This document shows, one piece after another, positions 3,502 through 15,031 of a stretch of 23,997 nucleotides of DNA (the stretch's first letter is position 1; the number at the start of each line of letters is the position of its first letter). Below the pieces are notes generated by a model. That model saw nothing but the letters and a program-made list of their open reading frames with translations. It did no database searches and was not told where the DNA came from. The stretch is from a virus: the IMG/VR virus record IMGVR_UViG_3300010370_000237, positions 1-23,997 of that record. The stretch is one strand, 5' to 3'. Both the position numbers and the translations under genes were made by a program.

Positions 3502-6438
3502 TTATGGGCAATCAATGTATTCACCAACAGGAGTTGGTCCAACAACTTCTGCGATTTCTCTCACATCTTGTCTATCTAGGCAAGCAATGTTTGCGATTGC
3601 GACAGCGCCAACACCTCTAGAGACAGGAATAATTTTAATTAAAGGATTGTCTGTAAATGTTTTTGACTTATTTTTTACTTTGATATCAACTAATACACCA
3701 TTGGCAATGACTGCTTCAGCAACATCCAACTCACCATCAACAAATACAGCAGGTGGCACATCGTAACCGAATCCTGGTTTAATAATAGTAAAACCTGTTA
3801 TAATACAGTCTAGATTTTCTGGTGGATTTGGAGGATAACCTCTGCCAGGTCTTACCACTTTAATCTCAGAAACATATCCTTCGTCATCCAATACAGCAAC
3901 CGCAGAAGCACCATATCCTCTACCATTACCTTGAATATAAATTGCTGGAGCTGCTAAGTATCTTGTGCCTGGCGAGCAGATACCAATGCTAACAATCTGT
4001 CCTGTGCTAGACACAACTGGAGGACATGCAATGGGTGGCACAGGAGTTGGAGATGTAGGTGGTGGTGTGGGTGGAGTTACAGGGTTGCCTTCGATTACAA
4101 ATTGTGTTGCTGCTCCACCATTTTGCAATGCGACATAAACCAATTCATCTTCAGAAAAACTAACTGTATCACTAACTGTTACCTGTGTAGTAGCTATATT
4201 ATCTACTACTGTAAATGTTCCCGTCAAAGTATTGCTAACAAAATCAGATAACTGTAGATTAAATCCAAACATAAAGTAATTTAATCTGGTGCCATTCGAT
4301 ATGCCAGTAGTAGTTAAAGTGAAAGTAACAATAGATCCAGGTCTAGCAACCACAGGACTAGCTTGTAAATCATAACTAACTCCTGGTCCAGATGGCAATG
4401 AAGTGGTGGAATATAATGCCGTTGAGTTTCCTACTATTTTTATTGTATAATCTGCCAGTGCTGTTGTATTTTCATTTGAATATCTTATCCTACGCACTGA
4501 TGAAATATTAGTGGAAACATTAATATCCGTAACAAATTTAATCAAACCATAAGAAGTAGAAAAATAATCTTCTCTTGGTCTATCTACTATCGAAGATGAA
4601 TTAATAAAAATATAACCAACATCAGATATTACTTCTTCTGGATCGTGTCCAGATGCTCTACACACACATCGATATCCATCACCATCATATGATGAAACCA
4701 ACGAGGATAGTGTTATATTATCAGATGTTTCTCCACTAATATCCAAATAAGAAATACCATCAGTAGATTTTTGCCATTGATAATTAATCGTAGATCCATT
4801 AGAGCTAGAAGCAACTACTCTAAATGTATAAGACTCTCCAACATTTTTAGTTGCACTTTGCGGATCTAATAAAATAGTTAGTGTGGGAACATCAGCAACT
4901 GGTGGGACTGTAGTAGAAGGTGTTGTCGTGGATGGTGTTGTTGTTGGAGTTTTATCTGGAATGCCGCCAGTTATTGCTACATTTAATTCAGGATTTACTG
5001 GAGCTAAAGCGTCTTCACACTGAGCAACAGCAGGAGATGGTTTAGTATCTTTAGCAATAGCAGACAGTAAAGCATCTAAATCATCTGCCAAGCCTTTCGC
5101 TTTTGTTTTTGGTCCTTCCCCACAATCTTTGATAACTTTCTTACACTTCTCTGGAAGTCCAGCACATGTAATACCAAGAAAACTCATAATCTCAGAAATT
5201 GTGCCGAAAATTTTATTCAATGGTGCCGCTACTCCCTGTAAAATATTAAGTAACGGTGCCATGATAGAATTAATGGCATTGGTGATGAAATTCTGTAGAG
5301 ATGACATCAAAGAATTAACCATTGCTTCGATGCCACACAAAGCTTCTGACCAAAACTTATCCACTAATCCCATAACAAAATCTGTTAGGAATTTAAGGAT
5401 TCTGTCATACAAATCTTCAATTTGGCAACCAATCTTCGCTAATTGATCCGTTAAAAACTTTTGAATTTTGTCAAGAAGTTTCTCTGGTTTCTTAGGATCA
5501 TATGGTGGTTTAGCATCCTTTGGTTTTCCTTTATCAGATATCAAACTCAGTAAAGCATTGATAAGATATTGTACACCTTGCTGCACAAGATTGTATAGTT
5601 TTCCTTTCAACCAACTATAACTTTGAAAGATAATTGCCATTATCTTTTGCACATAACCCATAACAAAAGACTCTGCTTCCCTAGCGTATCCAGTAACCTT
5701 ACTAACAAGCAAACTTCCAACCTGTCCACCAGATTGTGAGATTGCTTTAAACATTTCTGATAGAACAATTTCTATCATCGATGCAGTCTTTCCTGTTGGG
5801 CAATCTGCTTGAGAAATGATAGTGCATTTAACTGCTGCCTCATTCATTGCACTACCAGGACACTGGGAGTATGCAACAGCAGGCGGTTGTCCTACGGCAT
5901 TTTCTGGATTGTTTGCAGTACCAGGAGGTTGCTGAGCAGTAGCGTATTGCCCTGCTGCCGCTGCTTTAACGTCTGGTTTAGTTAGAGGCACCACTGAATG
6001 TGGAGGACCAGCTACAGGACCAGGAGCAAAGTTTTTAAATGCTCTACATCCTTCTGGGTTTGCTTTTAAAAATGGAGCAAGTGCTGGGTCATCTTCCCCC
6101 CTAGCATTTCTTATTGTGCCAATACTTCCTAGGATATATGGTTGCTGAGCCATATCGGAATCCATAAAGAATCCGATAACCCAATCACCCCATTTTAATT
6201 TTGTTGTTACGCCACCTGCAGCACTAAAAGGAGTAGTGGTTGGAGCTACGGTATTTGCCCAAGGCAAAGCATCGCTACCAGCACTCTCGCAATCAGCAAG
6301 ATGATGCCCTACAATTCTAACCTTAAAACGATTAGAGTTTTTATCATTTTCGTCAGTCTTTTCAATCTGACCAACCCACCAATGGAAACCATCTTTACCT
6401 ACAAAATTAGTAGGTCTGCCGTAACTTTCAAATGCCAT
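3502..6438 (-). CDS. 5: gp5-like baseplate hub protein with OB fold, no visible lysozyme domain
   Basis: The N-terminal 110 or so residues match the OB-fold of T4 gp5: HWWVGQIEK, then FKVRIVGHH, LPWANTVAPTT and GDWVIGFFMDSD followed by PYILGSIGTIRN. In T4 this domain seats gp5 on the gp27 trimer at the centre of the baseplate. The rest differs. Residues about 235-437 are a long series of amphipathic or hydrophobic helices. Residues about 490-520 are a Thr/Pro linker. Residues about 520-610 resemble an Ig-like domain (YTFRVVASSS, YQWQKSTDG, YRCVCRA). Residues about 816-970 hold GxGY..PP repeats. I see no T4-lysozyme-type active site. At 978 aa it is much longer than the 575 aa of T4 gp5. It is preceded by the 70-aa gene (2-nt gap) and the gp27-like gene. 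Confidence 0.8.
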   Translation of the reverse strand: MAFESYGRPTNFVGKDGFHWWVGQIEKTDENDKNSNRFKVRIVGHHLADCESAGSDALPWANTVAPTTTPFSAAGGVTTKLKWGDWVIGFFMDSDMAQQPYILGSIGTIRNARGEDDPALAPFLKANPEGCRAFKNFAPGPVAGPPHSVVPLTKPDVKAAAAGQYATAQQPPGTANNPENAVGQPPAVAYSQCPGSAMNEAAVKCTIISQADCPTGKTASMIEIVLSEMFKAISQSGGQVGSLLVSKVTGYAREAESFVMGYVQKIMAIIFQSYSWLKGKLYNLVQQGVQYLINALLSLISDKGKPKDAKPPYDPKKPEKLLDKIQKFLTDQLAKIGCQIEDLYDRILKFLTDFVMGLVDKFWSEALCGIEAMVNSLMSSLQNFITNAINSIMAPLLNILQGVAAPLNKIFGTISEIMSFLGITCAGLPEKCKKVIKDCGEGPKTKAKGLADDLDALLSAIAKDTKPSPAVAQCEDALAPVNPELNVAITGGIPDKTPTTTPSTTTPSTTVPPVADVPTLTILLDPQSATKNVGESYTFRVVASSSNGSTINYQWQKSTDGISYLDISGETSDNITLSSLVSSYDGDGYRCVCRASGHDPEEVISDVGYIFINSSSIVDRPREDYFSTSYGLIKFVTDINVSTNISSVRRIRYSNENTTALADYTIKIVGNSTALYSTTSLPSGPGVSYDLQASPVVARPGSIVTFTLTTTGISNGTRLNYFMFGFNLQLSDFVSNTLTGTFTVVDNIATTQVTVSDTVSFSEDELVYVALQNGGAATQFVIEGNPVTPPTPPPTSPTPVPPIACPPVVSSTGQIVSIGICSPGTRYLAAPAIYIQGNGRGYGASAVAVLDDEGYVSEIKVVRPGRGYPPNPPENLDCIITGFTIIKPGFGYDVPPAVFVDGELDVAEAVIANGVLVDIKVKNKSKTFTDNPLIKIIPVSRGVGAVAIANIACLDRQDVREIAEVVGPTPVGEYIDCP

Positions 6439-11019: not shown

Positions 11020-14000
11020 TTAGGACACAGATGAGTAATACACTCTATCATACAGAGCTTTGGCAGCTGCATGTATGTTTGCTGGAACTTCTTGTATTAC
11101 TGTTTGCACAGGACCAGGCACATATTGTATTTGCACCATTGGTTGTATCACAGCAACCGTAGATCCAACTGTGCCAGTGACAGTATCTTTAGGTATAGGT
11201 AGCGGCACAACTTGACCCTCAGGTAATGATGCTCCTCTTACTGGTTTGAATGATGAGTCTGGTCCATAAGGAGCATAATATTTTCCACCTATTGCTTCAA
11301 TAGCATCTCTAGGACCAGACTGATATCTAACATTCGATGGTCCTTTATGTGGTGGTCCGAATATAACTCTATCCACAAAATCTACAAGATTAAAACCACC
11401 AGAAACTTCAACGCCAGATTGTCTTCCTATTTGTTCATATCTATTGTATGCTCTTGCTGGATCTTTGTAAATATCATACTCTTTATTTTGTATAGGAGCA
11501 ATCAACATTTTATTTCCTAAATGTGCAAGTAATTCCTCACCATGACCTATAAATGTTTCTCCTCCAGTGTATTCTTTTGGAATAATATATCCTGTATCAG
11601 GTCCAGATATTTGATATAAACCCTTGACCTTATTAGAAAAACTTGCTGCAGCAGATACGATACCACCCCTCGCCATCTTCGCCAACACAGAAGCAGAGTC
11701 ATTTACTCTTTCTTGTTTCTCTTTTGCATCTTGTACTGCTGGTCCTTCATAATTTTTCAATACCCAGTTAGATGCAGATGCTATGTCTTTTGAATTTTTG
11801 AAAACATTTCCGCTATCATATGTTGGAAACTCTTCAATAACATATCCAAGAGCAAGGTCATCTGTTGCTGGTTTAGTCTTCCAATCATGACCTTTTGATT
11901 CCATATACTTAGCAAAACCCTGCTGTCTAGATGGAATGGTCCATTGTGGATAAGAATATCCTGCTCCCTTATTCATCGCGTCTTGTAAAGTGCCCTTCTT
12001 GCTACCTTCCAAAACATCTGGTTGAAGACCACTTTCTTGTATCATGTTGCCGACAATAGCAGCAGCTTGATAGTCTTTGATTCCTAATCTAGACTGTAAA
12101 ATTTTAGCAATTGAAGCGCCTTTTTCATACACAGGGCCATCTTTAATATCAAAGTCTTCGGCATCACTATCATCATCATTCTTCTCTTCATCACCACCAA
12201 TATTGATGCCAAATAATTTAAAGAAGTTGGCAAAGAATCTAGACAATTCATTCGCACCTTGCTTCTCCGTCATTGCAGCTGAATTAATTTCAGCAGCAAA
12301 TGCTCCTTGATTCAATCCAAATATAGTAGCAAGTCCTCCCATCAGTGGAGAGAATATCTTTGCAATTACACCACTAAAAGGTCCAGCAACACTCACTAAA
12401 TTAGAAAGCGTTGTAGAAATCCAAGATCCAACTACTTGGAATGGTGCTGCAAACAGATTAGCAAATGGTTGCACCTTCTTCATTAAATTTCCAGTGGCAC
12501 CAAGACCAGTAGCAAGAATATTACTACCAGCACCTCGCAAAGCTCCACCTTCAGCAAACTTTCTAGGAGACCCAGTAACCATTTCTGGACCTGCTTCACC
12601 AATCATTGCTCTTACTGGAGATGCTACACCAGCAGTGCCTTCTGCAAATTTAAATCTTCTGCCAGGAAATGATGGGAATTTGAATCTATTTCTCTTCGGC
12701 ACATCACCAGTTATTTTTGGACCACCTCTTCTTGTGGTATTTCTTTCCCCGCCTCCCTTTATTCTCTTAGCAATATCTCTTGCATCATCAGCGGCAAACA
12801 ACATATCAAACCAATCTAATCCATCACCTTCTTTTGACATCAATCCACTTAAATCAATGTCAGGTATATTGATATCACCTGTTGCTTGTTGTGCTTCATC
12901 ATCCGAAGACCCAGAATCTATTTCAACATCTATAGACTTGGCAATAGCATTTTGTATTCCCTCTAGTGTATCAGCTACTCGTGAAGTTTCTCCAACCAAC
13001 TTACTCATAGTCTGAATCAAGTCACCCATTCTCTTATTGATTCCACTGAGAGACTTAGTTACATTTCTAAATCCAGTTGCTAAATCTTTTATCTCTGACT
13101 GTTGTTTCTTATTCTTAGGGTCTCCATCTCCGTAGTCAAACTTGTCACCGAAACCTGCCTTCTTACTTGACTGTTTAGATGGTATGTTTTCAAAGAATGT
13201 GCCAACCGTTTGGTCTAATACTTTGCCACCAAACTGATACCCCAAAGACTTCTTAAGGAAGTATCCTTTCTCCTTTACTTCTGGTGGTATCTCCGCACCA
13301 TTTGCTTCTGCTTTAAGAGCTCTTTCTTTTTCTTTCTTAGCATCTTCAAATGCTTTTGATATTTTATTTCCTATCCATGCACCAGCACGAAGAACCGATG
13401 GGCCCATATTTTGTCCAACTGGACCACCCTTCTCCATGAAGTTGAGTGTTTTTTTCCCTATTACCTTGGCAACTCCTTTAACACCGCCACCAAACTTAGA
13501 TGCAAAAGATCTCTTAGGTGGTTTAGGTGGCGGACTACTAGGAGGAGTAGTAGGTTTTTTCTTAGACTTAGGTTTCTTTTTCTTCTTCTTTTTCTTATCA
13601 GTTTTCTGAGTCTGAGGCGTAGGAACAGTTTCACTACCTTCCCAAGGATCAGGAATCTTATTCTCTGTGGGGGGAGGAGCAATCTTCTCCTGAATGTCTT
13701 CTAAGATGTCTATCTTATCTTCAAGAATCTCAGAAACTTCTTCTTTAGTTTCTGCCTCCTGAATTTCTTCTTGTGCTTCTACTAATATTTCAGTAGTTTG
13801 CTCAACAATCTTTTCGCTTACTGGTTCTTCAAATGGATTGTTGAGATATGCTTCTACCAACCACTCCTGATATAATCTTTGCCTCTCCATCCACTGTATA
13901 GGAGTGCCACTTTCCTGATCCAAAGAGGGATAACCTCTTGGATCTTTTTTTATGTTGGCAATTAACCTATCGGCATCTGCATCAGAAAGATTTACATATG

Positions 14001-14136
14001 AAGTATAGCTTTCATCTCCCTGTCTTCTACCAGTTAATTTTGATTTTAAAATCAACCACAACCTAGAGTTAGGATTAATCCTACTCCAAGGCATCTTTGG
14101 ATTTAATACTCCTTCTGGCGGTTGTGGTAAATTCAT
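11020..14136 (-). CDS. Tape-measure/hub-like virion protein with tail-lysozyme domain
   Basis: This 1038-aa structural protein contains a domain like the phage tail lysozyme family at about residues 670-815. It starts at GASIAKILQSRLG and includes AAIVGNMIQESG (E701 is the likely catalytic glutamate), GYSYPQWT and a closing NWVLKNYEGP segment. It presumably cleaves the glycan strands of peptidoglycan during injection. Other parts are a Glu-rich coiled-coil segment (about 105-155), a lysine run (about 180-195) followed by a proline-rich linker, and GEAGPEMVTG (about 511-520), a motif common in tape-measure proteins. Its ATG overlaps the TGA of the gp26 frameshift extension as ATGA. Its place directly after the probable tail chaperone fits a tape-measure or central hub role. 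No T4 name can be assigned with confidence. Confidence 0.75.
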   Translation of the reverse strand: MNLPQPPEGVLNPKMPWSRINPNSRLWLILKSKLTGRRQGDESYTSYVNLSDADADRLIANIKKDPRGYPSLDQESGTPIQWMERQRLYQEWLVEAYLNNPFEEPVSEKIVEQTTEILVEAQEEIQEAETKEEVSEILEDKIDILEDIQEKIAPPPTENKIPDPWEGSETVPTPQTQKTDKKKKKKKKPKSKKKPTTPPSSPPPKPPKRSFASKFGGGVKGVAKVIGKKTLNFMEKGGPVGQNMGPSVLRAGAWIGNKISKAFEDAKKEKERALKAEANGAEIPPEVKEKGYFLKKSLGYQFGGKVLDQTVGTFFENIPSKQSSKKAGFGDKFDYGDGDPKNKKQQSEIKDLATGFRNVTKSLSGINKRMGDLIQTMSKLVGETSRVADTLEGIQNAIAKSIDVEIDSGSSDDEAQQATGDINIPDIDLSGLMSKEGDGLDWFDMLFAADDARDIAKRIKGGGERNTTRRGGPKITGDVPKRNRFKFPSFPGRRFKFAEGTAGVASPVRAMIGEAGPEMVTGSPRKFAEGGALRGAGSNILATGLGATGNLMKKVQPFANLFAAPFQVVGSWISTTLSNLVSVAGPFSGVIAKIFSPLMGGLATIFGLNQGAFAAEINSAAMTEKQGANELSRFFANFFKLFGINIGGDEEKNDDDSDAEDFDIKDGPVYEKGASIAKILQSRLGIKDYQAAAIVGNMIQESGLQPDVLEGSKKGTLQDAMNKGAGYSYPQWTIPSRQQGFAKYMESKGHDWKTKPATDDLALGYVIEEFPTYDSGNVFKNSKDIASASNWVLKNYEGPAVQDAKEKQERVNDSASVLAKMARGGIVSAAASFSNKVKGLYQISGPDTGYIIPKEYTGGETFIGHGEELLAHLGNKMLIAPIQNKEYDIYKDPARAYNRYEQIGRQSGVEVSGGFNLVDFVDRVIFGPPHKGPSNVRYQSGPRDAIEAIGGKYYAPYGPDSSFKPVRGASLPEGQVVPLPIPKDTVTGTVGSTVAVIQPMVQIQYVPGPVQTVIQEVPANIHAAAKALYDRVYYSSVS

Positions 14137-14327
14137 TTAAACTGCTGTTGCTGTTGTTTCTGTCTCTCTTCTTCTAGATGATTCATCAACATAGTAACAT
14201 ACACTTCCCTTTCCCATGGCATCATCTCTTCCAATTCAGTAAGAGAAAACTTATGAAAATACATCAGATTAAAATTAGTCTGATAGAAATTTGCAAGAGT
14301 TTCATGGAAGAGACTTATCCGAAAAAA
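14133..14327 (-). CDS. gp26 -1 frameshift extension (tail assembly chaperone-type)
   Basis: This minus-strand frame has 62 sense codons after the slip site, reading RISLFHETLANF, later FSLTELEEMMPWEREVY, and ending in a Gln-rich tail. It lacks a convincing start: the only internal ATG (14264) has no Shine-Dalgarno and would remove a third of it. The frame begins exactly where a -1 slip on T_TTT_TTC (14327-14321) would place the ribosome, and ends in a TGA overlapping the ATG of the next gene. The product would be gp26 residues 1-237 plus 62, about 299 aa. This matches the arrangement of lambda G/GT and P2 E/E+E', whose frameshift products are tail assembly chaperones. In T4 the next gene after 26 is 51, a hub assembly catalyst, but I see no clear similarity to it. 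Confidence 0.7.
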   Translation of the reverse strand, partial: FFRISLFHETLANFYQTNFNLMYFHKFSLTELEEMMPWEREVYVTMLMNHLEEERQKQQQQQFK

Positions 14328-15031
14328 TTGGTAAGTCCCTCAATAGTATATTCAGATTCAACCCCTGTATTGGGATTGGTTAAAGTAAATGTATGTGATA
14401 CCTTGGGCATAGTAGCAAAAAACTGTTGAATAGATTCAAACTGTTTGCTGGTTAAACCCTCTAGATATTCTTTAATCTCTTTCTTTGGTGTGGTCTTTGC
14501 TTCCCACACTTCTTCACCATCATAAATCTGTTCCACGCAATTAATAATCTCATCAAATACTTCTTCAGTTGATTGCTCTTTCTGTAGAATTTGTGATGTA
14601 ATAAACTGCTCCATGCTGGGATACTTCATAATCAATCCACTGGTATCAGAAAGAGTTACCTTTCTATTGTGTCCCTCTGGTTTGATACACTCAACTTCCT
14701 CAAGGTTTAATGTATAAGGAAGTTTAGTTTCATTATCATCCTTCGCAGTGAAAATCATTTCAACTAATTCACCAACTGACTTGGCACGGATGTTTAGAAA
14801 AACATATTCCAAATCAAACATCGAAAGATCTTCTACTTTAATTCCTCGTGTGAGAATACACGACTTGAGAATTTCAACGATAGCATCTCTCATTTGCTTA
14901 TCGTCACCTGACTCTGTAGCAATCAGAAGAAGTTTTTCTTCCTTCACTAAGAATGGTCTGTATTTAATTGTCTTACCTGTTGAAGGTAATTCCAATTCAT
15001 AGGTTGGGACTGGGGGTTTTGGTAATGCCAT
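14315..15031 (-). CDS. 26: Baseplate hub subunit gp26-like
   Basis: This 238-aa protein resembles the T4-type gp26 baseplate family: MALPKPPVPTYELELPSTG, then KYRPFLVKEEKLLLIA, and ILKSCI followed by DLEYVFLNIRAKSVGE. T4 gp26 is needed for building the central hub of the baseplate. It is 14 nt downstream of the tail-tube-fold gene and upstream of the tape-measure-like gene, the position taken by the tail assembly chaperone in lambda- and P2-like phages. The zero-frame stop comes one sense codon after a slippery T_TTT_TTC, so a fraction of product is probably extended by 62 residues. No catalytic motif or membrane segment is seen. Family assignment is good; the chaperone role is inferred. Confidence 0.82.
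   Translation of the reverse strand: MALPKPPVPTYELELPSTGKTIKYRPFLVKEEKLLLIATESGDDKQMRDAIVEILKSCILTRGIKVEDLSMFDLEYVFLNIRAKSVGELVEMIFTAKDDNETKLPYTLNLEEVECIKPEGHNRKVTLSDTSGLIMKYPSMEQFITSQILQKEQSTEEVFDEIINCVEQIYDGEEVWEAKTTPKKEIKEYLEGLTSKQFESIQQFFATMPKVSHTFTLTNPNTGVESEYTIEGLTNFFG
14321..14327 (-). promoter_or_regulatory. Programmed -1 ribosomal frameshift site (T TTT TTC)
   Basis: In the gp26 frame the codons are ACC AAT TTT TTC GGA TAA, so T_TTT_TTC is a correctly phased X_XXY_YYZ slippery heptamer, one sense codon before the zero-frame stop. An SD-like GAGGGA lies 8 nt upstream, a spacing similar to that of the stimulatory element of E. coli dnaX. A 6-bp stem (ATCAGA/TCTGAT, 14284-14263) lies 36 nt downstream, probably too far to act as the usual stimulator. 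Confidence 0.7.

Follow-up and report, generated by a model that had tools for sequence, protein, structure and literature searches.

How a T4-like cyanophage makes its tail assembly chaperones is a question raised by the short open frame between gp26 and the following gene. In many other phages, lambda (G/GT) and P2 (E/E+E') among them, a programmed frameshift at a tail chaperone gene is a classic mechanism. Among phages with long tails, the G-T frameshift has been described as widely conserved 'except T4'; in lambda, the tape measure and tube proteins are acted on by both the short and the long form, whose ratio is fixed (Atkins 2016, PMC5009743). T4 gp26 and gp51 have been classed as chaperones of hub assembly (PMC3004832), and gp51 of cyanophages and of marine vibriophages was found to have about 20% of the normal length, with the first ~200 aa missing (Sullivan 2010, PMC3037559). 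Is this small gp51 a gene of its own, or is it the end of a longer protein that begins in gp26?

We analyzed a stretch of 23,997 nucleotides (IMG/VR record IMGVR_UViG_3300010370_000237, positions 1 to 23,997), referred to as the window, for which an original prediction had proposed a programmed -1 frameshift extending gp26. Searching viral contigs at the protein level yielded 80 loci whose gp26 is 50-82% identical, which together with the window make 81; a non-redundant subset of 74 loci was used for codon counts. The features of the window locus are as follows:

15031-14315, minus strand: gp26, 238 aa, putative short tail assembly chaperone (TAC-N), matching PF12322 and phrog_150
14341-14336, minus strand: SD-like GAGGGA, candidate 5' stimulator, with GAG bias, 8 nt 5' of the heptamer
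14327-14321, minus strand: slippery heptamer T_TTT_TTC, phased with gp26, in 81/81 loci
14315-14317, minus strand: gp26 zero-frame stop TAA, one codon past the heptamer, read from the sequence and equally spaced in 80/81 loci
14133-14321, minus strand: -1 frame extension, 62 codons plus TGA, the predicted long-form-specific C-terminal part, supported by the open frame in 81 loci, dN/dS and phrog_634
11020-14136, minus strand: 1038-aa ORF with a phage tail lysozyme domain (PF18013), probable tape measure protein

The 3' end of gp26 reads ATT GAG GGA CTT ACC AAT TTT TTC GGA TAA, and the gene product matches Pfam PF12322 (T4_baseplate, 8.8e-69) and phrog_150 (2.2e-75). The extension frame opens with CGG ATA AGT CTC, its translation runs RISLFHETLANFYQTNF...QQFK, and its stop TGA (14135-14133) shares an ATGA with the start of the 1038-aa ORF at 14136. 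The placement of the heptamer one sense codon ahead of the gp26 stop had been accurate to the base, and the GAGGGA 8 nt upstream, the 62 open codons, the ATGA overlap and the lack of a good start in the window were all confirmed.

A phased NNT TTT TTC is present in all 81 loci, one codon ahead of the gp26 stop in each of them apart from L073 (two codons), and the arrangement of heptamer plus open -1 frame lies far above chance level. This conservation supports the predicted programmed frameshift. In the non-redundant loci, TTT TTC occurs in 74/74, while TTC makes up 25% of the remaining gp26 Phe codons. As a control allowing for shared ancestry, we used the other conserved columns inside gp26 itself: the share of TTC is 100% at residue 237, 0% at residue 236 and 4-59% at the other conserved Phe columns upstream. 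The codon ahead of TTT TTC ends in T in every locus, though its amino acid may be Asn, Ser, Ala or Asp. A similar bias was observed at the SD-like GAGGG, whose Glu is encoded by GAG in 65 of the 68 non-redundant loci having Glu there (96%), compared with 32% overall elsewhere in gp26 and 12-67% at the other conserved Glu columns (binomial 1.6e-28, valid if the loci are independent). Set against the in-gene control columns, the fixed TTC at residue 237 and the GAG bias indicate that selection acts on the signal at silent sites.

The E. coli dnaX signal combines an SD-like element, a heptamer and a downstream stem-loop. An SD-like upstream element of the dnaX type is present in the window together with the heptamer, although the heptamer is a different one and the spacing here is 8 nt; the stem-loop is shared by most relatives. 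Folding of the 42-50 nt 3' of the heptamer yielded strong hairpins in most of them, with a mean z of -3.16 against a control keeping protein and codon usage (p <=0.05 in 77% of loci), whereas windows in the gp26 body gave a mean z of -0.36 with the identical synonymous-codon control. The stem also covaries: counting pairs in 72 sequences gave a score of 0.293 versus 0.163 for shuffled data (0/500 reached 0.293) and at most 0.142 with the partner slid, and four stem pairs changed on both sides, e.g. from GC to CG. It occupies columns 33-44 with 54-65 of alignment A1 and was seen among L004-L080, for instance directly 3' of the heptamer in L023. RNAalifold on the 72-sequence alignment found no consensus structure; such an all-sequence consensus misleads here, as the sequence of the stem varies between subgroups. 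Neither the window (z -0.11) nor its nearest relatives L001-L003 (0.11, 1.40 and -0.35) have the stem-loop, so the window carries the heptamer and the SD-like element only, with one stimulator missing. Two window-specific hairpins, one around the heptamer and one at TCAGACTAATTTTAATCTGA, were set aside as they are not kept in L001-L003.

Past the heptamer, the -1 frame is open in 81/81 loci (two contigs end within the frame), while stops in either other frame across the extension number about 5.8 per locus in each. The conserved core of the extension reads LEnYY..NFaLmqHHKYSLtEiENMiPWEReiY..LL, and divergence at codon positions 1/2/3 amounts to 0.31/0.16/0.50. With a median dN/dS of 0.20 and all 271 usable pairs below 1 (maximum 0.53), the expected conservation of the -1 frame amino acids with synonymous bias was borne out. 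This substitution pattern indicates that the -1 frame encodes a protein under purifying selection.

The identity of this protein part is revealed by comparison with T4. The extension matches phrog_634, the T4 gp51 family of hub assembly catalysts (2.6e-24), and aligns with the C-terminus of T4-type gp51 (T4 residues 199-248, the last 50; hhalign prob 97.3, E 2.1e-11), whereas its profile found no match in T4 or 44RR gp26 (hhalign prob 0.3). Residues 1-201 of T4 gp51 in turn match PF12322 (3.9e-52). T4 gp51 is thus a PF12322 domain followed by a homologue of the extension, and corresponds, in a single frame, to the predicted frameshift product. Judged from these alignments, we read the cyanophage gp51 of '~20% length' as the frameshift extension and not as a truncated gene; its N-terminal part would be supplied by gp26 through the frameshift. 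In T4 and 44RR, a short gp26 and a fused gp51 are separate, divergently oriented genes; T4 therefore has two genes for what the phages studied here appear to make from one. In a tree of PF12322 domains, T4 gp26 groups with gp51 (85/91), as predicted by a duplication in the T4 lineage, but with long branches and a midpoint root this tree is only suggestive.

Inspection of the gp26 3' end in 22 annotated phage records revealed T TTT TTC in 18, including Vibrio (KVP40-like), Aeromonas, Acidovorax, Pseudomonas, Pelagibacter and Stenotrophomonas phages; Sinorhizobium phage phiM12 has T TTT TTT. Pelagibacter phage Mosig (L085) keeps the heptamer, with the gp26 stop seven codons further downstream, and in its record only a shorter portion of the -1 extension is annotated, as 'baseplate hub assembly catalyst'. 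In the record of Stenotrophomonas phage IME-SM1 (L086, NC_054952.1, ~4735-4745) the run consists of five T, which breaks the heptamer and lengthens the annotated gp26; the near-identical Ps15 (L116) has six, and the five-T run is probably a homopolymer sequencing error. The heptamer is absent from two Ackermannviridae, S118 (L090) and Ds9CZ (L091), which have GAA/GAG ATT TTC ATT TAA with a conserved extension frame, so the heptamer is not the sole possible solution. Ds9CZ has a TAATG start. S118 has neither a nearby ATG nor the heptamer, and another route to the long form may therefore exist. The original prediction had also warned that annotation loses the extension. This applies to S-CAM1 (L082), S-PRM1 (L114) and Sf-CH1b (L115), where it falls in a gap of ~175-185 nt without annotation that separates gp26 from its downstream neighbour, but in many cyanophage records it is entered as a gene of its own, 'gp51', as in S-SM1, S-PM2, P-SSM4 and S-CRM01.

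Is gp26 a plausible chaperone? The AlphaFold2 model of the protein has a pLDDT of 90.8, and for residues 1-86 the best match among solved structures is 2ob9, the tail assembly chaperone of HK97 (Z 6.6, rmsd 4.6, 84 aligned, 7% identity), followed by the similar small proteins 3klu (Z 6.5) and 3fgx (Z 6.0). Foldseek alone gave no significant match with the gp26 model (E > 1), and support for a chaperone-like fold of the N-terminal domain in this model is for that reason moderate. A model of the fused 44RR gp51 had no chaperone match (best Z 4.2), and this weak match was not counted against the chaperone reading. The neighbouring 1038-aa ORF matches PF18013 (2e-18) and, weakly and within the lysozyme part, the tape measure family phrog_9570 (0.0017); in phiM12, the gene two places past gp51 carries the annotation 'similarity to phage tape measure proteins'. 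We infer that the ORF probably encodes the tape measure protein. In S-CREM2 (L097, from 1430), the extension is followed by a gene of ~1565 codons that is labelled 'endolysin', compared with 918-1167 codons in S-SM1 and S-PM2. The tail of S-CREM2 is reported to be ~418 nm long (PMC10665884); the combination of a long gene and a long tail fits a tape measure role.

As a whole, these data are best explained, with high probability, by a programmed -1 frameshift at the end of gp26 that gives a short and a long chaperone form. In this model, gp26 would be the short form (TAC-N) and the equivalent of T4 gp26. A minority of ribosomes would reach TTT TTC in the P and A sites, be held on the heptamer by SD-anti-SD pairing at GAGGGA and slip back one base, whereupon both tRNA-Phe would re-pair on TTT TTT. 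Reading through 62 more codons would then produce the long form (TAC-NC) of ~299 aa with an NFF-RISL junction, the predicted collinear equivalent of T4 gp51. During tail assembly both forms would work together, their most likely target being the tape measure protein encoded by the next gene. The slippage itself, its efficiency and the assembly role are what we infer from sequence comparison.

The extension could also be a small gene in its own right, the 'gp51' of cyanophages, whose translation would begin by termination-reinitiation past the stop of gp26. Many records annotate it as its own gene, a TAATG overlaps the gp26 stop and the extension frame in S-CRM01 and the KVP40-like Vibrio phages, and among 72 loci an ATG is found in the -1 frame at or before +8 in 46. 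The window, however, has no ATG, GTG or TTG in this frame from the upstream stop to +8, the next one lying only deep within the conserved part; 25 loci including the window have no such start, and one has TTG only. The claim that the -1 frame lacks a separate start hence holds for the window and 24 other loci but not for the 46 relatives with an ATG, where reinitiation is a live secondary route. Even there, the ATG varies in place (+2, +5 or +8) and SD matches are poor, with at most 4 nt and 25/46 without any, though the starts of gp26 itself are weak too. Moreover, loci that do have the ATG show the same silent-site fixation of TTT TTC, of the T ahead of it and of GAG, which reinitiation leaves unexplained, and the T4 gp51 fusion shows that the domain works joined to a gp26-like domain. 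We consider it very unlikely that reinitiation accounts for the locus.

Slippage might instead take place during transcription, as the invariant run of six T could be used for transcript realignment and would yield the identical -1 protein. Six T are short for polymerase slippage, though, the run stays at six before C in 18/19 annotated records that retain the site instead of being lengthened, and the GAG bias and the stem-loop act on ribosomes; a transcriptional origin thus appears highly improbable. We give hardly any credence to an unprogrammed origin, in which a split gene has decayed or the T run was missequenced: IME-SM1 suggests that T-run miscounts occur in records, but 81 loci share the arrangement, and both frames are under purifying selection.

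With ribosomal frameshifting as the favoured mechanism, the locus resembles lambda G/GT and P2 E/E+E' in having a short protein and a predicted -1 long form just before the, here probable, tape measure gene. The likeness is one of layout; in contrast to lambda and P2, the zero-frame stop follows one codon past the slip site, and an SD-like element, plus a stem-loop in most relatives, is under visible selection. With T4 it shares the PF12322 domain of gp26 and the collinearity of gp51 with the predicted frameshift product, but T4, 44RR and relatives use two genes and no frameshift, whereas here one gene would serve for both forms. Our search of the open literature on cyanophage frameshifts or slippery sequences found no paper on the gp26 locus. 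Vladimirov, Gautam and Davidson reportedly identified the T4-like chaperone genes in 2022. A passage of the PRFect paper states, citing Vladimirov 2022, that 'some T4-like phages' use short and fused genes (PMC10885494). For phage Adele (Vandenendeviridae/Andersonviridae), a chaperone frameshift with a poly-T slippery site and a conserved -1 frame before the tape measure was described (PMC12846349); the motif is given as GTTTTT and the phage families are different, but a passage of that paper cites poly-T slippery sites in 'TAC-N genes of T4-like phages'. In view of these two remarks, the cyanophage case has probably been described already, at least partly. As far as the literature consulted shows, our additions are the evidence from silent sites, the covarying stem-loop and the finding that the window clade lacks this structure.

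Tentatively, since the case for it is somewhat less than even, we suggest that one ancestral gene has taken at least two routes to the two forms. One, in cyanophages, KVP40-like phages and several other genera, would be a -1 frameshift accompanied by an SD-like element and, for many of the cyanophages, by a stem-loop that covaries; the other would be duplication with in-frame fusion in the T4 lineage, where the frameshift was lost. The complete signal of three parts, together with the loss of part of it in the window clade, may represent an undescribed variant of a phage chaperone frameshift.

The proposed mechanism would replace an old annotation puzzle, the cyanophage gp51 at one fifth of its length, and hundreds of cyanophage records would need one joined CDS where gp26 is now followed by a small gene or a gap. 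It would also link the chaperones of abundant ocean phages to tail assembly in lambda and T4, and the single-gene and two-gene systems may be compared to learn what sets the proportion of short to long chaperone.
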